A stretch of 64,000 bases of DNA from Geodermatophilus ruber (GTDB lineage Bacteria > Actinomycetota > Actinomycetes > Mycobacteriales > Geodermatophilaceae), in NCBI RefSeq assembly GCF_900114385.1, contig NZ_FOSW01000001.1, positions 372,001 through 436,000 of the forward strand, given 5' to 3'. A program made the translations under genes and the position numbers. Every line of letters starts with the position of its first letter. Within the stretch, counting starts at the first letter, position 1. Shown in pieces: positions 54,651 to 64,000 of the stretch. The notes beneath the pieces were generated by a model. That model made no database searches. It worked only from the letters and a program-made list of their open reading frames with translations, and had not been told where the DNA came from.

Positions 54651-55952
54651 TCAGGGGGTGGGGAGCGGGACGACGTCCGCCGGCTCGGCCGGGCGCCGGT
54701 CGAGCGGGTGGGCGAGCTCGTCGGCGGGCAGCCGGGCGGCGAGGATCGCGACCACCGCCAGCACCGGCGGGACCAGGCCGGCCACCAGGAAGGTCGCGGT
54801 CAGCCCGATCCCCTCGCTGACCGGCCCGGCCAGGGCCATCGACAGCGGCAGGAACGCCGTCGAGACGAAGAAGTCCAGGCTGGAGACCCGGCCGAGCAGC
54901 GCCGGGGGGACCCGCCGCTGCAGCAGCGTGCCCCAGATGACCATGCCCGCCTGCGAGGTGGCGCCGGTGACCAGCCCGGCGGCGATCATCACGGCCAGCG
55001 AGGTCGTGGTGCCGAAGACGACCATCGGCAGGCAGCCCAGCCCCCACAGCAGGTTCATCACCGTGAGGTAGCGCCGGGGCAGCCGGAGGGAGGCGAGCAC
55101 CGTCGACCCGAGGGCCCCGCCGATGCCGAACGCGGCCAGCACGAGGGCGTGCTCGAGCGGTCCCCCGCCGGCGCGGTCCTTGATCGCGAAGGGCGCCAGC
55201 ACCTCGAAGGGGCCGAGCATCACCAGCAGCATCAGCGAGGCGAACACCAGCGTGGCCAGCAGCCAGGGCGTGCGAACCATGTAGCCGAAGCCCTCGCGCA
55301 TGTCCGCGACCAGGCCGCGCACCGGGTGCGCCGGCGCCGCACCGGGGTCCCGCCGCACCGGCGTCGCGGGCAGCAGGCCCACGCAGACGGCCGCCCCCAG
55401 CGCCGTGGCGGCGGTGAGGACCAGGGCCACGCCGGGGGACGTCGCGGCGATCAGCCCGCCGGCCACGGCCGGGCCGGTGGCCAGGTAGAGCACCGGCCGC
55501 ATGGTGCCCTCGAGTCCGTTGGCCGCCAGCAGCATGTCCTCGGGGAGCAGCGCCGGCACCAGCGCGGAGTACGCCGGGTAGTAGAGGCCGTTGGCCGCGC
55601 CCCCGGCCAGGGCGACGGCAGCCAGCTGCCACAGGGTCAGCAGGCCGGTCAGCGAGAGCGCCGCGACGAGGGCGATGCTCACCGTCTGCACCAGCGCGAC
55701 GGCCAGCAGGATGTGCCGCTGCGGGATGCGGTCGGCGAGCGCGCCGCCGAGCAGCGTGCTGGCCAGCATCCCGCCGGCGCTCAGCCCGGTGACCAACGAG
55801 AGCTGCGCGGGGCCACCCTTCAGCGCGACCACCTGCCACACCACCGCAACGGTGAACGTGCTGTTGGTCAGCAGGGAGAGCCCCAGCGAGGCGGCCAGCC
55901 GGCGGTAGCGGGGGTAGCGCAGCGGTTGCAGCGCCCGCGGCAGGCCGGCCAT
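54651..55952 (-). CDS. MFS transporter (macrolide-efflux/enterobactin-exporter-like)
   Basis: 433-residue permease with 12 helices in the MFS_3 (Mef/EntS-like) arrangement. The helix 2-3 loop is GALADRIPQRHILL, and the central loop contains RDPGAAPAHPVRGLVADMREG, a typical position for this group. Drug or siderophore export is likely but not provable. ATG at 55952 with GGGGAG upstream (a GTG is one codon earlier). Monocistronic, between VOC and acyl-CoA dehydrogenase genes. Confidence 0.88.
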   Translation of the reverse strand: MAGLPRALQPLRYPRYRRLAASLGLSLLTNSTFTVAVVWQVVALKGGPAQLSLVTGLSAGGMLASTLLGGALADRIPQRHILLAVALVQTVSIALVAALSLTGLLTLWQLAAVALAGGAANGLYYPAYSALVPALLPEDMLLAANGLEGTMRPVLYLATGPAVAGGLIAATSPGVALVLTAATALGAAVCVGLLPATPVRRDPGAAPAHPVRGLVADMREGFGYMVRTPWLLATLVFASLMLLVMLGPFEVLAPFAIKDRAGGGPLEHALVLAAFGIGGALGSTVLASLRLPRRYLTVMNLLWGLGCLPMVVFGTTTSLAVMIAAGLVTGATSQAGMVIWGTLLQRRVPPALLGRVSSLDFFVSTAFLPLSMALAGPVSEGIGLTATFLVAGLVPPVLAVVAILAARLPADELAHPLDRRPAEPADVVPLPTP

Positions 55953-56095
55953 CACACTCCCCGTCGTCCCGCCCCCCGAGGTGCCGGACGGCGGGGCCAT
56001 CCTGCCTGCCGCCGCCGCCCGGCCGCGCGCAGATATCACCGACGGCGTCCGAGCGGAGTGGATCCGTGCGCGTTACGCGGAGGAATCCACTCCGG

Positions 56096-57361
56096 TCAGG
56101 CGAGCGGGGAGCGCGGGAGGAGGCGGTCGCTGATGATCCGCCGCTGGATCTCGCTGGTGCCCTCGAAGATCGTGGTCAGCCGGGCGTCGCGCCAGTGCCG
56201 CTCGACCTGCCGCTCGGTGGTGTAGCCGTTGCCGCCGTGCAGCTGCATGGCCTGGTTGGTCACCCGAACGGCCATCTCGGTGGCCTCGAGCTTCACCATC
56301 GAGGCCTCCTTCTCGCACGGGACGCCGAGGTCGAGCAGGTGGGCCACCTGCCGGTAGAAGGCGCGCGACTGCTCGACCTGCGCGGCCATGTCGGCGACGG
56401 CGAAGCGCAGCGCCTGGAAGTCGCCGATCGGGTGGCCGAACTGCTCGCGCTCCTGCAGGTAGAGCAGCGAGTCCTCGAGCGCCGCACGCGCCAACCCCAC
56501 GGCGCGGGCGGCGGTGTGCACCCGAGCGGTGTTGAGGAACTTCTGCGCCTCGGCGAAGCCGGCCCGCTTGGCCGCATCACCCTCCTCGTCGCTGGCCGCC
56601 GCCTCGTCGATGACGTTGCCGGCCGGAATGCGGACGCCGTCGAAGGTCAGGTCCCAGGTGAGGAACCCGTGGTAGCCGACCTTGTCGATCGGGTAGCCGG
56701 AGAGCCCCTCGGGGAACTCGCCGCGCTCCTTCTCCAGCAGCAGGTTCACCAGCCCCTTGGAGCGGGACTCCCCCGGCTCGGGGTCGCGCTCGCGCACGAG
56801 CACCTGGATGAAGTCGGCGGCCTTCGCGTTGCCGCACCACCGCTTGCGGCCGGTGACGACCCACTCGTCGCCGTCGAGGACGGCGCGGGTCGAGACGCCG
56901 GCCAGGTCGGACCCCGCGTCGGGCTCGGACAGCGCGATCGCGCCGATCCACTGCCCGCGGGCACTGCGGCGCAGCAGCTCGTGGCGGCGGTCGGCGTCGG
57001 CCACCGCCGTCCCCAGACCCTGCGAGCGGGCCAGGATGCTGGCCGTCGACATCCACGCGCGAGCCAGTTCCTCGCTGACCATGCAGTACTCGAACACGCC
57101 CAGGCCCAGGCCGCCGCACTCGGCCGGAACCGTGATGCCGAAGTAGCCGAGCTCGGCCAGCCGGGCCAGCAGCGACGACGGGATCTCGCCCTTCTGCGGG
57201 TCCAGCTCGTTGGCGACCGGCAGCACCTCGTCCATCGCGAACCGGCGGGCCTGCTCCTGCAGCTTCTCCCGCTCCGGCGTGTGCCACGGCGGCAGCAGCG
57301 CGGGCGGTTGCGGCTCCAGGACGTCGTCGGTGGACTCGTCAGCGCGCTGGGTCGACGTCAT
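56096..57361 (-). CDS. Acyl-CoA dehydrogenase
   Basis: 421-residue enzyme. Family motifs SEPDAGSDLAGVSTRA (substrate-binding) and IFEGTSEIQRRII with the catalytic Glu near the C-terminus. Usual length for short/medium/branched acyl-CoA dehydrogenases, clearly different from the 614-residue FadE at 3214. Probably acts on short branched, aryl or glutaryl-type CoA esters. It lies 245 bp downstream of the FAD monooxygenase gene with a palindrome (57446-57467) between them, so it has its own promoter or a read-through operon link. Confidence 0.92.
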   Translation of the reverse strand: MTSTQRADESTDDVLEPQPPALLPPWHTPEREKLQEQARRFAMDEVLPVANELDPQKGEIPSSLLARLAELGYFGITVPAECGGLGLGVFEYCMVSEELARAWMSTASILARSQGLGTAVADADRRHELLRRSARGQWIGAIALSEPDAGSDLAGVSTRAVLDGDEWVVTGRKRWCGNAKAADFIQVLVRERDPEPGESRSKGLVNLLLEKERGEFPEGLSGYPIDKVGYHGFLTWDLTFDGVRIPAGNVIDEAAASDEEGDAAKRAGFAEAQKFLNTARVHTAARAVGLARAALEDSLLYLQEREQFGHPIGDFQALRFAVADMAAQVEQSRAFYRQVAHLLDLGVPCEKEASMVKLEATEMAVRVTNQAMQLHGGNGYTTERQVERHWRDARLTTIFEGTSEIQRRIISDRLLPRSPLA

Positions 57362-57445
57362 CGTCGGTCGTCTCTCCTCGACAGAGGCGGATGATCACGT
57401 ACACCTTGGCGGCTGGGGATGCCCGCCGCACGCCGTCCTCACCCG

Positions 57446-57467
57446 CACCGTGAGCGGCCTCACGGTG
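57446..57467. promoter_or_regulatory. 22-bp palindrome ahead of the acyl-CoA dehydrogenase gene
   Basis: Arms CACCGTGA (57446-57453) and TCACGGTG (57460-57467) around GCGGCC. It lies 85 bp upstream of the start codon, and 140 bp past the monooxygenase stop; operator for a TetR- or GntR-like protein, or a terminator hairpin, are both possible. Confidence 0.45.
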
Positions 57468-57606
57468 GCCGGCCGTGCGCGGTCGAGGTCGACCCCGCCC
57501 CTGTCGAGAGAACCCGCTGGTGCGCTGGACCGCCGCCGTACCGCCCCTCGTCGCCCTCGCGGCGCCGAGCGGGCCGGGGGCCGCGGGCCGCGGGCCGCGG
57601 GCCGCG

Positions 57607-58887
57607 TCAGCGAGCCGCCCGCTCCCGGGCGAGGGCGATGTCGCGGGCCTGCTCCCGCCCGGCCGGGGGCGGGCCCGGGTGCCAGGACGGCACGAAGGGC
57701 AGCTCCCCGCGTCGGGCGGCCAGAATCAGCCGCTGCGCGGTGTCGACGGCTCCCTGCACGAGCCGCGCCGGCCGCAGCTGCTCGGCCCTGAACACCCGCT
57801 CGCGCATGGACGACGGCGGGGAGTTGCGCGTGGCCATCGCGTACGCGGCGTCGACGGCGTCGCGACCGTCGAGGTAGTCGTCGGCGTGCTCGTACCAGTT
57901 CATGCTGCCGCGGGCGTGCCGCTGGACGCGCTCCAGGTTCGGGCGGGCCCGGTGGTCGAAGTCGCGCAGCGCCGCGGCCAGGTCCCCGGGGAAGTCGTCG
58001 AGGCTGCGCACCAGCTCCACCGCGTCGATCACCGCCAGCCGGGTGCCGGACCCGATCGTGAAGTGCGTGGTGTGCGCGGCGTCGCCGATCAGCACGACGT
58101 TGTCGTGCCACCAGGTCCGGTTGGAGACCTCCTTGAACCGCAGCCAGCGGGCCGGCTCGCCGCGGGACTGGCTGATCAGGGAGTGGCCCTGCAGGGACCG
58201 CTCGAAGATCTGCGCCAGCAGCCGGATGCCGTCGTCCTCGTCCCGCTCGTCCATGCCGAGCGCCCGCCAGGTCGTCTCCGTGCACTCGACGATGCAGGTG
58301 CTGACCGTGCCGCTCGACGGGTAGGCGTGGAACCACAGCCAGCCGGCGGGGGTCTTCTCGAAGGCGAACACGAAGCTGGGGAACACCATGTCGGTCCCCA
58401 GCCAGATGTAGGGGTTGGCGCCCGTCTCGACCCGGGTGCCGAAGTGGTCGCCGTGCAGCTGCCGGGTCCGGCTGCCCGCACCGTCGGCGGCCACGATCAG
58501 GTCGGCGTCCGCGAACGGGGTCAGGTCCTCGACCGGGTGGTCGTACTCGACCGTGACGCCGAGCCGGCGCGCGCGGTCGACCAGCGTCTCGAGGAACTCG
58601 GCACGCTGCATGGCGAAGCCGTACCCCCCCAGGTGAGCGACCCCGCCGCTGACGTGGATCTCCTGGTCCTTCCACAGCGTGGAGGCCCGGCGCAGCGCCC
58701 GCCCGCTCTCCGGGTCGTTGACGTAGAGCAGGTCGAGCATGTCGTCCCAGTAGACGACGCCCCAGCCGTACGTCGCGCCCTGCGGATCCCTCTCGAGGAC
58801 GGTGATGTCCCGGCTGGGGTCGCTCCGCTTCGCCGAGATGGCGAAGTACAGGCCGGCTGGGCCGGCACCGACGCAGACGATCTTCAT
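57607..58887 (-). CDS. FAD-dependent monooxygenase (anthraniloyl-/salicylyl-CoA hydroxylase N-terminal-like)
   Basis: 426-residue group A flavoprotein hydroxylase. The FAD motif GAGPAGLYFAISAKRSD and ITVLERDPQGATYGWGVVY match the flavin domain of 2-aminobenzoyl-CoA and salicylyl-CoA monooxygenases; GDAAHTTHFTIGSG is the second FAD motif. The natural homologues carry a C-terminal OYE-like domain that is missing here, so this is the stand-alone form. ATG overlaps the ABC transporter stop (ATGA). Aromatic CoA ester hydroxylation is inferred. Confidence 0.82.
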   Translation of the reverse strand: MKIVCVGAGPAGLYFAISAKRSDPSRDITVLERDPQGATYGWGVVYWDDMLDLLYVNDPESGRALRRASTLWKDQEIHVSGGVAHLGGYGFAMQRAEFLETLVDRARRLGVTVEYDHPVEDLTPFADADLIVAADGAGSRTRQLHGDHFGTRVETGANPYIWLGTDMVFPSFVFAFEKTPAGWLWFHAYPSSGTVSTCIVECTETTWRALGMDERDEDDGIRLLAQIFERSLQGHSLISQSRGEPARWLRFKEVSNRTWWHDNVVLIGDAAHTTHFTIGSGTRLAVIDAVELVRSLDDFPGDLAAALRDFDHRARPNLERVQRHARGSMNWYEHADDYLDGRDAVDAAYAMATRNSPPSSMRERVFRAEQLRPARLVQGAVDTAQRLILAARRGELPFVPSWHPGPPPAGREQARDIALARERAAR

Positions 58888-60914
58888 CGAGGTCCTCCGG
58901 GGGGCGCGATGCGGTGGGGATCGGGGCCCGGCCGGCCGTCGTCCTCCTCGCCGGACCCCCAGGGGACCGGCGCGGGCTGCTGCAGCCACGGCGGCGGGCC
59001 GTCCGGGAACGGTTCGTCCCACTCGCCGTCCGCCCAGGGCGGGGGGCCGACCGGTTCCGGCTCGGGGTGCCGGTGCCGGCCGCCGGCCGGTGCGCGGCGC
59101 AGGGCGTGGCGCAGCGAGTACAGGTGGGCGTAGCCGTTGCCCGCTTGCAGCAGCTCCTCGTGCGAGCCGGATTCGATGATCCGCCCGTGCTCCAGGTGCA
59201 CGATCTGGTCGGCCTCGGCGGCGGTCAGCAGGTCGTGCGAGATGACGATCGTGGTGCGGCCGGCCATCAGCCGGCGCATCGGACCGAGGATCCGCTCGGC
59301 GGCCTGGGCGTCGAGGCTGGCGGTGGGCTCGTCGAGCAGCAGGATCGGCGCGTCGCGCACCATGGCCCGCGCGATGGCCACCCGCTGCCGCTGGCCGCCG
59401 GAGAGCAGCCGGCCGCGCTGGCCGACCCGGGTGTCGTAGCCCTCGGGCAGCCGCACGATGAACTCCTCGGCGTCGGCCGCCCGGGCGGCGCGGACGATCT
59501 CCTCGTCCGTGGCGTCCGGCCGGCCGGCGCGGATGTTGTCCGCGACGCTGGCGTCGAGCAGCAGGGTCTCCTGCAGCACGATCGCGATGTTGGCCCGCAG
59601 CTCCGCGGGGTCCAGGTCGCGCAGGTCGTGCCCGTCCAGGGTGATCCGGCCCGCGGTCGGGTCGAACAGCCGCAGGAGCAGCCGGGCGAGGGTGGACTTG
59701 CCGGCCCCGCTCACACCGACCAGGGCGGTCGTCGTGCCGGGGTCGGCGCTGAAGCTGATGCCGTGCAGCACGTCGTCGGCCGTGCCGGGGTAACGGAAGT
59801 CGACGTCCTCCACCCGGATCCGCCCGGCCGCCCGGCCGAGCGGCACCGGGTGCTCGGGCGCCCGCACCTCGGCCTGCTGGTCGAGCAGCTCGATGATGCG
59901 CTCGGCGCCGGCGGCCGCGGCGAAGACGACGGTGGACAGCTGCCCCAGGGCGCTCACCGGGCCGTAGAGCAGGGACAGCGCGAGCAGGAAGGCCAGCAGG
60001 TCGCCCAGGGTCATGCGGCCGGAGCTCAGCTGCCAGGCCCCTGCCCCGACGATGGTGATCACGCCGACGACCTGCACGAGGTCGACGAACGGGGTGAACA
60101 ACGCGCCGATCCGGGTGGCCCGCAGGGCCGCCGCGACGCTGCCCAGCGACTGGCCGGTGAACCGGCCGACCTCAGCCTGCTCCCGGCCGTAGGCCTGGAC
60201 CAGTGGGGCGTTGCCCAGGCTCTCCTCGACGACCGTGGCGATCGATCCGCTGCGCCGGCGGACCTCGCCGGAGGCCGCCTTGATCCGGCGGGCGAAGATG
60301 CGGGTGATCAGCCAGAACACCGGGATGACGGCCATCGAGATCAGGGCCAGCTGCCAGTCCAGCACGAACAGCAGGCCGGCGAACACGACGATCTTCAGCG
60401 CCGACAGGACCAGCGCGGCGACACCGGAGAGGATGAGGCTCTCGATCGCGATGACGTCGCCGGTGAGCCGGCTGATGATGTCGCCGAGCCGCCGCCGGTC
60501 GAAAAAGCCGATCGAGAGCGTCTGCAGGTGGGCGAAGACCGACGTGCGCAGCCGGTGCAGGAAGCTCTCCCCCGTCCACGCCGTGAGGTAGGCGCCGACG
60601 AAGCCGAGGATCCCCGTGCCCAGGGTGATCGCCAGGTAGGCGGCCGCGAGCGGCGCGAAGGCACTGAAATCGCGGGGCACGAGGACGTTGTCGACCAGCA
60701 ACTTGGTCAGCCAGATGCCCAGCCCCTCGAGCGCGGGCCCGACGCTGCCGAGCACCATGCTGACCAGCAGCCACCAGCGCAGCGGCCGGGCGTAGGGCCA
60801 GAACCGCCGGAAGATGTCGCGGACGGCGACCGTCGGCGCGGCCTCGACCAGCGCCTCGTCCTCCGGCGAGCCCGGGCTCACCAGCGTGCGCGTGATGTCC
60901 CACACGGGCACCAC
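58884..60914 (-). CDS. ABC transporter, fused permease and ATPase (MsbA/LmrA-like exporter)
   Basis: About 676-residue half-transporter. Six membrane helices occupy about residues 40-340; the nucleotide-binding domain has Walker A VGVSGAGKSTLARLLL, signature LSGGQRQRVAIARAM and Walker B ILLLDEPTASLD. A Pro/Trp/Asp-rich C-terminal extension of about 80 residues (with WADGEWDEPFPDGPPPW) is unusual and may bind a partner. No C39 peptidase is fused. GTG at 60914, 60911 or 60905 are candidate starts; GGAG and GAGG lie upstream of each. Confidence 0.92.
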   Translation of the reverse strand: MVPVWDITRTLVSPGSPEDEALVEAAPTVAVRDIFRRFWPYARPLRWWLLVSMVLGSVGPALEGLGIWLTKLLVDNVLVPRDFSAFAPLAAAYLAITLGTGILGFVGAYLTAWTGESFLHRLRTSVFAHLQTLSIGFFDRRRLGDIISRLTGDVIAIESLILSGVAALVLSALKIVVFAGLLFVLDWQLALISMAVIPVFWLITRIFARRIKAASGEVRRRSGSIATVVEESLGNAPLVQAYGREQAEVGRFTGQSLGSVAAALRATRIGALFTPFVDLVQVVGVITIVGAGAWQLSSGRMTLGDLLAFLLALSLLYGPVSALGQLSTVVFAAAAGAERIIELLDQQAEVRAPEHPVPLGRAAGRIRVEDVDFRYPGTADDVLHGISFSADPGTTTALVGVSGAGKSTLARLLLRLFDPTAGRITLDGHDLRDLDPAELRANIAIVLQETLLLDASVADNIRAGRPDATDEEIVRAARAADAEEFIVRLPEGYDTRVGQRGRLLSGGQRQRVAIARAMVRDAPILLLDEPTASLDAQAAERILGPMRRLMAGRTTIVISHDLLTAAEADQIVHLEHGRIIESGSHEELLQAGNGYAHLYSLRHALRRAPAGGRHRHPEPEPVGPPPWADGEWDEPFPDGPPPWLQQPAPVPWGSGEEDDGRPGPDPHRIAPPGGPR

Positions 60915-60947
60915 CTCGTCTCCGGAGCCGGCCGGATTCCCCGACGG

Positions 60948-60993
60948 CCCCTCGTAGAGGGGTGGCCCCCCGCGCCGAGCGCGGAGGGCCACC
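60948..60993 (-). terminator. Two abutting stem-loops between the Trp-rich ORF and the ABC exporter
   Basis: On the minus strand, arms GGTGGCCCTCCGCGC (60993-60979) and GCGCGGGGGGCCACC (60975-60961) form a 15-bp stem (one U-G) with a 3-nt loop. A second stem pairs CCCCTC (60962-60957) with GAGGGG (60953-60948) around a 3-nt loop, and shares two bases with the first, so they partly exclude one another. This is a layout expected of an attenuator or of a partial terminator that keeps the upstream ORF highly expressed. Confidence 0.65.
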
Positions 60994-61034
60994 CGCCGGA
61001 CCGCAAGGGTCTGGCTGGATGGAACAGACGGGTG

Positions 61035-61184
61035 TCAGTCGTCGTCGTGCTTCCACCCGTGGCGGCGGTGCCAGCCGCCCCAGCCGCCCCAGCCGCCCCA
61101 CCAGCCCCACCAGCCCCAGTGGTCCCGGCCGTGGCGCCAGCCACCCCACCAGCCGCCCCAGTGGTCGTCGTCTCTCCACGTCAT
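61035..61184 (-). CDS. Trp/Gly-rich microprotein or leader peptide, 49 aa
   Basis: The 49-residue frame contains 14 Trp, 14 Gly, 6 His and 7 Asp and only eight amino-acid types in all. It is built from DHWGGWWGGW (residues 7-16) and DHWGWWGWWG followed by GWGGWGGW (21-38), with an RRHGWKHDDD end. ATG at 61184 has AAAGGA 8 nt upstream, which supports translation. It has no known family to me. It lies 120 bp upstream of the ABC exporter and FAD monooxygenase on the same strand, with tandem hairpins between. A leader peptide for attenuation or an exported metal-binding or membrane-active peptide are possible. Confidence 0.55.
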   Translation of the reverse strand: MTWRDDDHWGGWWGGWRHGRDHWGWWGWWGGWGGWGGWHRRHGWKHDDD

Positions 61185-61908
61185 GATCTCGGTCCTTTCT
61201 CGGATTCTCCTGATGAGGCATGCCGCCTCGGAAAAGCACTCCGACTGATCCGGACCCCCCGCGAGATGCTGAATTTCGACTCAGCCGGGATCGACACTCT
61301 TTGCGTTGGCGGTAATCCCTCCCCCTGAGATGTGCGTGGTGGAACCCCCACGAATGTGCGTGGAGGTCTGCTGGTGGAGGCCTACCGCGGCCGGCCACGC
61401 TGGAGGAGGCAGCCGACGGTAGGCATCGGGACGGCACGCGACGGTTGATCGACCGCCCACGGCCGCGGGGCCGTGGGGAAACCTGGGCGCGTGCGTGACC
61501 CGCAGGCGCTCGCCTGGGTCACAGAGGAAGTAGACGCTCGGCGGGACCGGCCGATCGCGCAGTGGTCGCGCGGCTCCGGCAGGGGCGGGCGGCATGGACC
61601 ACGTACTCGGTGTCGCTGGGCCGCTCCCAGGGTGCGATCGCGACGTCGTCGGTCGCACCCACTCACCCGCTATCCCGCGGTGGGGCTGTTCACCTCCTCG
61701 GCGGTGGAATGCAGAGAACAGTAGTTGAAGGTGCGGCCCACGCATCGCCCTGAAGCCCGAAACCGGCACGAGTTCGGGCGTATCCGGAGAACCGCCGCGC
61801 GGCGTCACACCCCGCGAGCAGTCGGGCAGCACAGTGCTCGGGGAATGGCGCCGCCCCAGGGCCGGAAGGCCCTGGGGGATTCCCGCCCAAGGCACCTACC
61901 GCCGCGGT
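61185..61908. other. Gene-poor stretch of about 720 bp
   Basis: No frame here has convincing protein character on either strand; the longest (61281-61895, minus) is Pro/Arg/Ser-rich shadow-like sequence. A decayed gene is conceivable on the plus strand from 61491 (DPQALAWVTEEVDARRD-like start, then a frame change). ATGTGCGTGG occurs twice, at 61330-61339 and 61354-61363. The segment also includes the presumed promoter of the Trp-rich ORF, which I could not locate precisely. Confidence 0.45.
61854..61877 (-). terminator. Terminator of the epimerase gene
   Basis: Perfect 10-bp arms CCCCAGGGCC and GGCCCTGGGG around a 4-nt loop (GGAA on the plus strand), 32 bp after the stop codon on the minus strand. 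Confidence 0.7.
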
Positions 61909-62850
61909 TCAGCTCATCGCCCGGAGGCCGCGCTGCACCGCCGTGGCCCCCTCGGTGAGCCGGGCGCCGGCCTCGGGCAGCAGCCGGCCGTCGGCGTCGA
62001 GCAGGTCCCGCCAGCTGCGCAGCGGTACCCAGCCGAGGAGCTTCTCGGCCTTGGTGCTGGAGATGCCCGAGGCGTCCGGGCGGGCGACCGGCCGCAGCTC
62101 GACGGCGTCGCCGAAGTGCCGGCGGACGAGCTCGTGCAACGGCAGACCGTTGGCGTTGTCGGCGGCGGCCGCGTACAGCACCTCGTGCCCGGTCGTGTCG
62201 CCCGCGACCGCGGCAGCCAGCAGGTCGGCCAGGTCGTCGACCACGACGTAGGACCAGAACGAGGCGCTCCGGTCGGCGCCCTGGGCCCGCACGATCGGCC
62301 CCACGTTGCGCTCGATGTTGCCCTCCCACTGCACCCACGTCGGCCGGATCGAGAAGGCGGTGAGGTCCGAGCGGGCCACGGCGGCGTCCATCAGCTTCTC
62401 GCCGAACCACTTCGAGAGGGCGTAGGGGTCCTGCGGGGCGATCGGGTGCCCCTCGTCGATCGGCGCGTACTGGGCGTGGAAGTAGCGCCGGGGATAGGAG
62501 AACCCGGGCACGGTCTCGCTCGAGATGTGCACGAACCGGCCGACTCCGCTGCGCTCGGCCGCCTCGAGCGTGTGGTAGGTCGCCATGAGGTTGGTGCCGA
62601 AGATGACGTGCGGTGGGTTCTTCGCCGGGCTCGGGATGGCGGCGGCGTGCACCACCGCCTCGTGGCCGGGCACGACCGCGGCCGCGTGCCCGGCATCGGT
62701 GAGGTCGGCCTGGACGTACCGGACCTCGCCGGCGCGCTCGTAGACCGGCGGCTGCCGGTCTACCGCGGTGATTTCGTGCCCGTCCCGCATCAGCCGGTCC
62801 ACAGCCGCCGCGCCGACCTTGCCGCGGGCCCCCGTCACCAGGATGCGCAT
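61909..62850 (-). CDS. NAD-dependent epimerase/dehydratase (extended SDR)
   Basis: 313-residue Rossmann-fold protein. The cofactor motif is LVTGARGKVGAAAVD; catalytic Tyr-Lys are in DPYALSKWFGEK, and the Ser/Thr in HISSET. It belongs to the extended SDRs that modify nucleotide sugars or act as uronate dehydrogenases; the substrate cannot be determined. ATG at 62850. Divergent from the hydrolase gene across 130 bp, and followed by a clear terminator. Confidence 0.9.
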   Translation of the reverse strand: MRILVTGARGKVGAAAVDRLMRDGHEITAVDRQPPVYERAGEVRYVQADLTDAGHAAAVVPGHEAVVHAAAIPSPAKNPPHVIFGTNLMATYHTLEAAERSGVGRFVHISSETVPGFSYPRRYFHAQYAPIDEGHPIAPQDPYALSKWFGEKLMDAAVARSDLTAFSIRPTWVQWEGNIERNVGPIVRAQGADRSASFWSYVVVDDLADLLAAAVAGDTTGHEVLYAAAADNANGLPLHELVRRHFGDAVELRPVARPDASGISSTKAEKLLGWVPLRSWRDLLDADGRLLPEAGARLTEGATAVQRGLRAMS

Positions 62851-62980
62851 GCCTCGGGATACCCCTCACGCCCGATCCCGCACCCGGCCCGCGGCGTGTC
62901 GCCGGCCGACCCGCCGGCGCGGCACCGAGGACTACCGTCGTCCGCACCAGCTGGCCGGCGTCCGGAGAGGGGCGGGGCTG

Positions 62981-63748
62981 ATGGCGACGTTCGTGCTCGT
63001 GCACGCCGCCTGGTTCGGCGGCTGGTGCTGGCGGAGGCTCGCGCCCCGGCTCCGGGCAGCCGGGCACGACGTCCTCACCCCGACCCTCACCGGGCTCGGT
63101 GAGCGCGCGCACCTGCTCGACCACGGGATCGACCTGCTCACGCACGTCGAGGACGTCGTCAACGTGCTGGTCTACGAGGACCTGGACCGGGTCGTGCTCG
63201 TGGGCAGCAGCTCCGCGGGGATGGTGATCACCGGTGTCGCCGACCGGGTGCCGGAGCGGGTGGCCGAGCTGGCCTACGTGGACGCCTTCGTGCCCGAGGA
63301 CGGCCAGTCCCTGTTCGACCTGATCGGGCCGGAGCACCGGGCAGCGATGGAGGAGCTCGTCGCGACAGAGGGCGACGGGTGGCTGCTGCCCCGGTTCGCG
63401 CCACCGCCGTGGGAGGAGATCCTGCCCCGGCTCTGGGAGATCACCGACCCGGCCGAGCTGGCGTGGCTGGTGCCCCGGCTGCGCGCGACACCGGTCGGGC
63501 ACTTCACGCGGGCGCTGCGGCTGGGAGACCCGGCGGCCCGGGCGCCGACCCGCAGCTACGTCCGCTGCGTGCGCTTCCCGCACGCGGGGCTCGACCGGTT
63601 CGCGGAGCGGGCACGGGAGAGTGCGGACTGGCGGCACCGCACGCTGGACTGCTCCCACATCCCGCACGTCACCTGCCCCCGGGAGCTGGCCGCCGTCCTG
63701 CTCGAGCTGGTGCCGAGCGACCGCGCGGGGGTGCCCGCCGGGAGGTGA
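62981..63748 (+). CDS. Alpha/beta hydrolase (EstC/salicylate-esterase-like)
   Basis: 255-residue serine hydrolase. The oxyanion-loop HAAWFGGWCWRRL is typical of this plant MES/bacterial EstC-like group, and the nucleophile elbow is VGSSSAGMV, where the usual His-x-x-Gly-Gly of GHSYGG is replaced by SSSAG. The His of the triad is likely in DCSHIPHV, and Asp in the LGD/TRSY region or near the DPAAR segment. ATG at 62981 is chosen from the conserved FVLVHAAWFGG start. Substrate is probably a small ester. Confidence 0.88.
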   Translation: MATFVLVHAAWFGGWCWRRLAPRLRAAGHDVLTPTLTGLGERAHLLDHGIDLLTHVEDVVNVLVYEDLDRVVLVGSSSAGMVITGVADRVPERVAELAYVDAFVPEDGQSLFDLIGPEHRAAMEELVATEGDGWLLPRFAPPPWEEILPRLWEITDPAELAWLVPRLRATPVGHFTRALRLGDPAARAPTRSYVRCVRFPHAGLDRFAERARESADWRHRTLDCSHIPHVTCPRELAAVLLELVPSDRAGVPAGR

Positions 63749-63763
63749 GCGGGACGGCGCCGC

Positions 63764-64000
63764 TCAGCGGGCGCCGCGGGCGTGCGCCAGTGCGACGTAG
63801 TGCTCGACGGCGGCCGGGTCGTCGACCGCGCCGACGTTGAGGGCCGTGGCCGGGTCGACCCCCTGGAAGAGCCGCTTGAGCGGCACCTCGAGCCGCTTGC
63901 CGGTGCGGGTGCGCGGGACGGCGGGCACCACGAGGATCTCGTCGGGGACGTGGCGGGGGCTGGCCTGGCGGCGGATGGCATCCGTGATCGCGGTGCGGAG
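63764..64000 (-). CDS. Acetoacetyl-CoA synthetase-like AMP-forming ligase, C-terminus (partial)
   Basis: Only the last 78 codons are visible; the rest lies beyond the right edge. The stretch RRQASPRHVPDEILVVPAVP and the RTRTGKRLEVPLKRL motif with the acetyl-CoA-synthetase A10 catalytic Lys is characteristic of acetoacetate-CoA ligase, as are GVDPATALNVGAVDDP and the final helix HYVALAH. It would activate acetoacetate or a similar ketoacid to its CoA ester with ATP. Convergent with the hydrolase gene, 15 bp between stops. Confidence 0.82.
   Translation of the reverse strand, partial: LRTAITDAIRRQASPRHVPDEILVVPAVPRTRTGKRLEVPLKRLFQGVDPATALNVGAVDDPAAVEHYVALAHARGAR

Follow-up and report, generated by a model that had tools for sequence, protein, structure and literature searches.

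What does a peptide with 14 Trp and 14 Gly residues among its 49 amino acids do when its gene lies directly ahead of genes for an ABC exporter and a flavin monooxygenase? The question is raised by a 64,000-nucleotide stretch of the Geodermatophilus ruber genome (here called the window), for which a preliminary description had offered two answers: an extreme Trp-codon attenuation leader, or a secreted or membrane-active microprotein served by the adjacent exporter. The analysis presented here points to a form of the second, which we give about an even chance: a cassette resembling those of RiPPs, in which a precursor-like peptide would be supplied to the exporter and its indoles would be hydroxylated by the flavoenzyme. 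The features concerned are collected in Table 1.

Table 1. Features of the proposed cassette in window coordinates
Feature	Coordinates	Strand	Basis or remark
Ribosome-binding site AAAGGA	61193..61198	-	8 nt before the peptide ATG; read from the sequence
Gene for a 49-aa peptide rich in Trp, Gly, His, and Asp; proposed precursor for export	61035..61184	-	ORF (ATG 61184-61182, stop ending at 61035), GC3, position kept across the clade
G+C-rich hairpin between peptide and exporter genes, terminator or processing type, no T-tract	60960..60994	-	Inverted repeat
MsbA-like ABC half-exporter (transmembrane + ATPase)	58884..60911	-	Pfam ABC_membrane + ABC_tran; start GTG at 60911 or 60905
FAD monooxygenase	57607..58887	-	Pfam FAD_binding_3; ATG overlaps the exporter stop (ATGA)

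The frame encodes MTWRDDDHWGGWWGGWRHGRDHWGWWGWWGGWGGWGGWHRRHGWKHDDD on the minus strand, which the preliminary description had left unstated; the 49 codons, the Trp and Gly counts, the HDDD C terminus, and the AAAGGA ribosome-binding site are all exactly as first placed. GC content at codon positions 1, 2, and 3 is 0.63, 0.69, and 0.96, the pattern of a high-GC bacterial coding frame. TGG occurs 14 times in frame but 0 and 1 times when the same strand is read in its two other frames, and as the best-frame maximum across 2,000 dinucleotide shuffles was 9, the Trp content lies beyond chance. Only 4 of the 235 short ORFs in the window, the peptide ORF included, contain at least 10% Trp, with the runner-up at 14% against 29%. 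The DNA is an imperfect 9-base repeat (unit TGG GGC GGC). We regard the ORF as almost certainly a real coding gene. Upstream of it, at 61321-61366, lie two 22-nucleotide direct repeats, 24 nucleotides apart and 77% alike, which are possibly an operator.

A search of related genomes for conservation, proposed in the preliminary description, had a divided outcome: by sequence no homologue was found, and by position a Trp-rich ORF occupies the same place and strand at all 11 clade exporters with upstream DNA, the window's included. The peptide sequence had no match in the genomes of 60 relatives, a set that does not include the four cassette-bearing family members described below. Against the genome_contigs collection, cassette holders included, 116 pattern stretches were obtained and none was confirmed, and the 12 from viral_contigs fared likewise. 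Rfam gave no match to positions 58500-64000 at E ≤ 1, and eight representative peptides had no Pfam or NCBIfam match at E ≤ 1. The pattern GWHKWHDD occurs in 2 of 112 family genomes, at two places in each, all within known cassette loci. No description of such a cassette was found in the literature (PMC), as judged from titles and abstract openings. Exporter-linked micropeptides of this kind escape both sequence search and the two family libraries used (Pfam and NCBIfam), because it is mainly position and composition that are conserved.

Among the same 112 family genomes, four from other genera carry exporters 73 to 77% identical to that of the window, one of them in two copies, and Trp-rich ORFs lie 5' of these exporters where DNA is available (MTDRQRRRDDDKWGGWWGGWRRDRHDGRWGWWGGWD; MTYTKKSEKRPEWGGWWGGWGGHGGWWGGHGGWWGHKGW; MSYNGHSNDDGWHKWHGDDDRGWHKWHDDDKGWHKWHDDDNKGWHKWHD; MSQSSDKWHDDGWHKDDKDKGWHKWHDDGWHKWHDDKGWHKWHK). 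When about 85,000 species genomes were scanned with the exporter alignment, the set grew by Saccharopolyspora rosea, S. spinosa (NRRL 18395, L047), S. shandongensis, and S. elongata, Pseudonocardia kujensis, and a Pseudonocardiales MAG, all with a Trp-rich ORF. Since a sequence had to contain either of two short motifs to be picked up, and the best 80 of 179 relatives were retained, "the clade" denotes the 12 exporters found, from Geodermatophilaceae (Blastococcus and Modestobacter MAGs included), Saccharopolyspora, Pseudonocardia, and the one Pseudonocardiales MAG. The twelfth (L045) comes from a sequence that begins inside the exporter and so has no upstream DNA. In an exporter tree of 85 rows built by a quick method, from which L087 was left out as its frame was too short as cut, these 12 exporters lie together on one side of a branch whose SH-aLRT support is 100. 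Within the genus, this exporter was present at E ≤ 1e-150 only in the window's own genome among 26, so that the cassette is sporadic there, having been either gained or often lost.

The 11 Trp-type ORFs are 29 to 60 amino acids long with 14 to 29% Trp each, and their pooled composition is 29% Gly, 21% Trp, 12% Asp, 9% His, 7% Arg, and 6% Lys. Two kinds of repeat occur, W-G-G and W-H-K-W-H-D-D, so that composition and position are conserved and the DNA repeat itself is not. A Blastococcus MAG (L035, 3898-14210) has two copies of the cassette, one with a peptide of the WHKWHDD type and the other with one of the WGGWWGGW type, and between them lies an acyl-CoA dehydrogenase 92% identical to that of the window. 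N termini differ among the Geodermatophilaceae peptides; three Saccharopolyspora peptides have MQIKDSFRFDRFRS in common, with cores of differing length. In all five Geodermatophilaceae frames GC3 is 0.89 to 1.00 and a start signal is present, an SD-like sequence preceding the peptide in the four loci other than the window's as well. The Gly codons of 10 of the 11 peptides (GGC 99, GGT 16, GGG 5, GGA 5) vary at the third position in a way that only fits protein-level constraint, and codon evidence for the Trp type is weak, as Trp has a single codon.

The exporter has, at E ≤ 0.001 in Pfam, only transmembrane- and ATPase-type families, and the N-terminal C39 peptidase that marks PCAT bacteriocin exporters was not found by that search. 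Its NCBIfam score against MsbA (TIGR02203) is 471 bits, below the cutoff of 602, which places it outside the MsbA lipid A exporter family as curated. The suggestion of a secreted microprotein served by this exporter is supported by the conserved order of peptide, exporter, and monooxygenase genes, by other low-complexity micropeptides beside exporter relatives, and by tandem peptide copies. The Trp-rich peptide is probably the substrate of the exporter.

Association with the flavoenzyme is confined to the Trp type. Its gene lies no more than 500 nucleotides beyond the exporter at all 12 clade loci, and at none of the 75 unique exporters examined outside the clade (the set of 89 rows comprises 87 unique exporters once the second copies of two that occur twice are removed), a co-occurrence that does not represent many independent events, as the Trp-type loci are one clade. 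In four Saccharopolyspora species its gene is convergent to that of the exporter yet adjacent to it, and adjacency despite reversed orientation argues for a functional link rather than one inherited with an operon. A short gene conserved beside a candidate enzyme is what would be expected of a RiPP precursor, and both are found here (peptide 11/11, enzyme 12/12). Flavoenzyme relatives also occur in 173 records of the plasmid collection; in the two examined, from Pseudonocardia autotrophica and Nonomuraea gerenzanensis (45 to 47%), no exporter relative was detected at 1e-10 within 13 kb around the enzyme, with the Nonomuraea record having one about 74 kb away. Near these two enzymes lie four and one short ORFs, respectively, with at least 10% Trp and of mixed composition.

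The nearest solved relative of the flavoenzyme is VioD (8gqr; 2.2e-48 by phmmer against the PDB). An AlphaFold2 model, built from nine sequences with a pLDDT of 80.6, was matched by Foldseek to VioD at 3.0e-30 and then to kynurenine monooxygenase at 9.8e-18, and VIA-align gave a Z of 37.4 to 8gqr_B (root mean square deviation 2.8, 346 residues aligned) with the next family at 29.9. A VioD-type flavin hydroxylase fold is therefore predicted from the model. The exclusive pairing of a VioD-like enzyme with Trp-rich peptides suggests that indole hydroxylation takes place on the peptide, and we lean toward the view that the Trp residues are oxidized by this enzyme.

The exporter also belongs to a wider family in which peptides of other composition occupy the same place. 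Exporters 43 to 54% identical to that of the window, mainly from Streptomyces, likewise have a short low-complexity ORF on their 5' side (e.g., MSFKKLAPLPPKPKSKQLPPPPKPKPKKHAPKPLPKPLPGQDR and MSFHKIVPVKKHRKPAPAPKKPAPKKPAPKRPVGHKG), as does an Anaeromyxobacter exporter (MLFTELIPALNHGCGGKTKKSKKTRSCKTKTRTRTRGCGHGRGRSGCH); the non-Trp kinds are Pro/Lys-rich, Lys/Pro/Ala-rich, and others. By a low-complexity cutoff chosen after the peptides had been seen, such an ORF lies upstream of the exporter at 67 of 79 loci, or at 60 of 70 once the Trp type is set aside, compared with 18 of 426 control genes from the same loci. The 12 misses are mostly just over the cutoff, have a longer chosen start, or lie further upstream. 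An N-terminal motif also chosen after the fact, [FLM], one to three residues, then [LIV]-x-P-[ALMVS], is present in 69 of 72 non-Trp peptides (after manual correction of five starts and the addition of two peptides) against 381 of 14,400 shuffles, and in 0 of the 11 Trp-type peptides. Identity is 0.84 in the first ten columns against 0.70 in the rest for 33 P-rich peptides and 0.86 against 0.56 for 23 K/P/A-rich ones, with pN/pS values for two non-Trp types of 0.61 (31 loci) and 0.64 (23 loci).

On the exporter tree, the P-rich, K/P/A, and N/Q types need one change each, and 11 rows fall in no group. Two or three tandem MSF-type peptide genes lie within 700 nucleotides upstream of the exporter at 18 of 68 loci (L053-L120), L087, L095, and L113 among them, with those of L095 being three nearly identical copies. 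An EamA-type transporter gene follows many of the P-rich Streptomyces exporters and is treated here as a neighbor without known relevance. At L123 and L125-L128, whose exporters are 50 to 54% identical to that of the window, the cutoff gives no Trp-rich ORF directly upstream and the peptides are of other composition; L126 has one TTG-start Trp-rich ORF about 900 nucleotides upstream. The peptide-ORF rule gave none for L048, L091, and L127r. Other scans found one at L048 (where the hairpin was seen in a separate analysis) and at L127r, and L091 is without a peptide in every analysis.

A second enzyme, a stand-alone protein kinase (Pfam was run on two), is encoded directly after the exporter at seven loci outside the Trp clade (L052, L068, L106, L123, L129, L130, and L132), which span Chloroflexota, Myxococcota, and Actinomycetota. 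The ORF at L052, in Chloroflexota, is mildly rich in Trp (5 W in 40), and the kinase there takes the place of the flavoenzyme. The Ser/Thr fraction of the seven peptides is 0.09 to 0.34, that of L123 not being rich, and Cys is present in four. A pairing of kinase with Ser/Thr-rich peptide, as another case of enzyme matched to peptide, is only suggestive.

With this family in view, it could be argued that the Trp-rich peptide is exported unmodified, for example as a metal-binding or surface peptide, while the flavoenzyme has some other, small aromatic molecule as its substrate, an explanation that we consider rather unlikely. In its favor, neither flavoenzyme nor kinase adjoins 68 of the 87 unique exporters (downstream DNA of at least 1,500 nucleotides being available for all but L074 and L131), and a short peptide ORF is present at 65 of the 67 loci containing these exporters. 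By hidden Markov model the enzyme is also nearer to salicylyl-CoA 5-hydroxylase (374 bits, cutoff 1,078) than to VioD (NF053547; 199.9 bits, cutoff 620), so that a small-molecule substrate is possible, with both scores below cutoff and the enzyme therefore a member of neither family as curated. Furthermore, an acyl-CoA dehydrogenase gene (56096-57361), followed by one for an MFS transporter, comes after the flavoenzyme in the window, and one lies between both cassettes of the G093 locus. Against this stands the restriction of the flavoenzyme to the Trp type, in either orientation. In addition, no relative of the dehydrogenase was seen in the Modestobacter (L036 and L037) or Saccharopolyspora (L046-L049) stretches, of which those of L036 and L048 are short, ending soon after or inside the flavoenzyme; the dehydrogenase is thus probably outside the cassette.

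The hairpin bears on both the proposed precursor and the leader offered as one option by the preliminary description. In the window (inverted repeat I1) it has 16-nucleotide arms, 94% complementary, and a 3-nucleotide loop. A hairpin scoring at least 30 is found in this place at each of the 10 Trp-type loci tested and at 47 of the 72 other loci, whereas mononucleotide shuffling of intergenic regions gave 8 in 820; its sequence varies between clades. The hairpin would fit partial termination, by which more peptide than exporter is made. It could instead be proposed that the peptide is a regulatory leader or arrest peptide, in which a terminator before the exporter responds to how a codon-biased or stall-prone ORF is translated, so that Trp supply or ribosome slowing is sensed. 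The order of elements, with the peptide immediately 5' of a strong hairpin and then the exporter, is compatible with this, as are the many P-rich Streptomyces hairpins that finish in T runs and the ability of Pro runs to stall ribosomes.

Attenuation, however, calls for a competing antiterminator, and none was consistently present. In the window the best such duplex scores -24.1 against a shuffle mean of -25.8, with 81 of 100 shuffles as good and the terminator at -37.3; at 8 of the 10 Trp-type loci, the window included, at least 9 of 100 shuffles are as good, and the terminator is more stable than the competing duplex at all 10. The exceptions are L043 and L049, where just 2 and 4 of 100 shuffles, respectively, do as well, which counts toward a leader, and the signal is absent from all four P-rich loci tested (of 33). 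Tandem peptide genes, two or three of them complete at 18 of 68 loci, are more than a leader would need, and one whole cassette is duplicated; the convergent monooxygenase of the four Saccharopolyspora species lies beyond a leader's control. The neighboring genes are not those of Trp biosynthesis, and the exporter family keeps the same architecture with peptides that are not Trp-rich. Trp attenuation of the cassette is consequently unlikely, and we hold a leader or arrest peptide of any kind to be improbable.

A chance open frame in a GC-rich repeat, with no product, would be consistent with the 9-base repeat and the lack of a sequence homologue but is scarcely credible and was rejected on the shuffle test (14 TGG against at most 9) and on the agreement of 11 of 11 loci in place, strand, and composition, some with the different repeat GWHKWHDD, together with the GC3 values and start signals of the five Geodermatophilaceae frames.

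Returning to the precursor, the computed features (the ORF, its conserved Trp-rich character and position, the hairpin, the exclusive co-occurrence of peptide and flavoenzyme, and the predicted fold of the latter) can be arranged into a three-gene cassette in the order peptide, hairpin, ABC exporter, flavin monooxygenase. We infer that the peptide would be translated in excess of the exporter, with the hairpin passing only part of transcription into the exporter gene; that the VioD-like enzyme would hydroxylate the indole rings of its Trp residues; and that the MsbA-like exporter would move it out of the cell, where the product may have an activity. Several observations count against this reading: neither a leader protease nor a further tailoring enzyme was recognized beside the window cassette, the N-terminal motif of the wider family is absent from the Trp-type peptides, the peptide has no sequence homologue, and L052 combines a mildly Trp-rich ORF with a kinase and no flavoenzyme. 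If the proposal is correct, this would be a new peptide natural-product cassette in which a single flavin hydroxylase acts on peptidyl Trp.

More tentatively, the loci may represent an undescribed family of exported low-complexity micropeptides in Actinomycetota, Myxococcota, and Chloroflexota, with one exporter scaffold serving very different cores and some branches having an enzyme matched to the chemistry of the peptide (Trp-rich with VioD-like indole hydroxylase, Ser/Thr-containing with kinase). In the branch of the window, up to 14 indoles might then be hydroxylated to give an exported hydroxyindole-rich material that is redox-active, metal-binding, or melanin-like. The wider family would in that case be a large set of exporter-linked micropeptides.

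Comparison with known systems places these proposals in context. Like trp-type attenuation leaders, the locus has a short ORF containing Trp codons, followed by a terminator-like hairpin; it differs in having 14 such codons, no consistent antiterminator, and an ABC exporter and a flavoenzyme downstream in place of genes for Trp biosynthesis or transport. Salicylyl-CoA 5-hydroxylase gives the best NCBIfam score, over flavoenzyme residues 1-355, yet the match is confined to positions 1-361 of a 768-amino-acid model and misses its cutoff, and here the flavoenzyme is associated with an exporter and a peptide gene. VioD, a flavin hydroxylase of the violacein pathway with an indole-type substrate, is the nearest solved structure by both sequence and fold, and the PDB entry 3c4a is titled a probable tryptophan hydroxylase. 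The flavoenzyme is, however, only 29 to 30% identical to VioD and reaches 200 bits of the 620 set as cutoff; the substrate of VioD is a small molecule, and the enzyme is not known to be linked to a peptide gene. RiPP cassettes with peptidase-less ABC exporters, such as those of lasso peptides, similarly bring together a short precursor gene, an exporter, and a tailoring enzyme. According to PMC9266682, 7-hydroxy-Trp is known in the lasso peptides RES-701-2 and RES-701-4, and the hydroxylase is there put forward as a proposal. The difference is that no lasso cyclase or protease was recognized among the window neighbors scanned and that the core is a Trp/Gly or Trp/His/Asp repeat.

To our knowledge, hydroxylation of peptidyl Trp by a single flavin hydroxylase has one characterized example, QhpG. 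The flavoenzyme of the window scores just 25 bits against the QhpG model (NF049967, cutoff 240), outside that family, and no QhpG structure appears among the 50 Foldseek and 50 VIA matches listed, which excludes nothing. As set out in PMC7876137, one Trp of QhpC is converted, and the radical-SAM protein QhpD and the protease QhpE are required; no protein of QhpD or QhpE type was recognized among the six other proteins scanned at 54651-63748 of the window. In the same pathway, the flavoprotein QhpG dihydroxylates peptidyl Trp of QhpC, which the ABC efflux transporter QhpF exports (PMC7876137). A small gene product with target Trp, a Trp-hydroxylating flavoprotein, and an ABC exporter thus come together in that system, and by functional analogy the qhp tryptophylquinone pathway may serve as a precedent for the steps proposed for this cassette.
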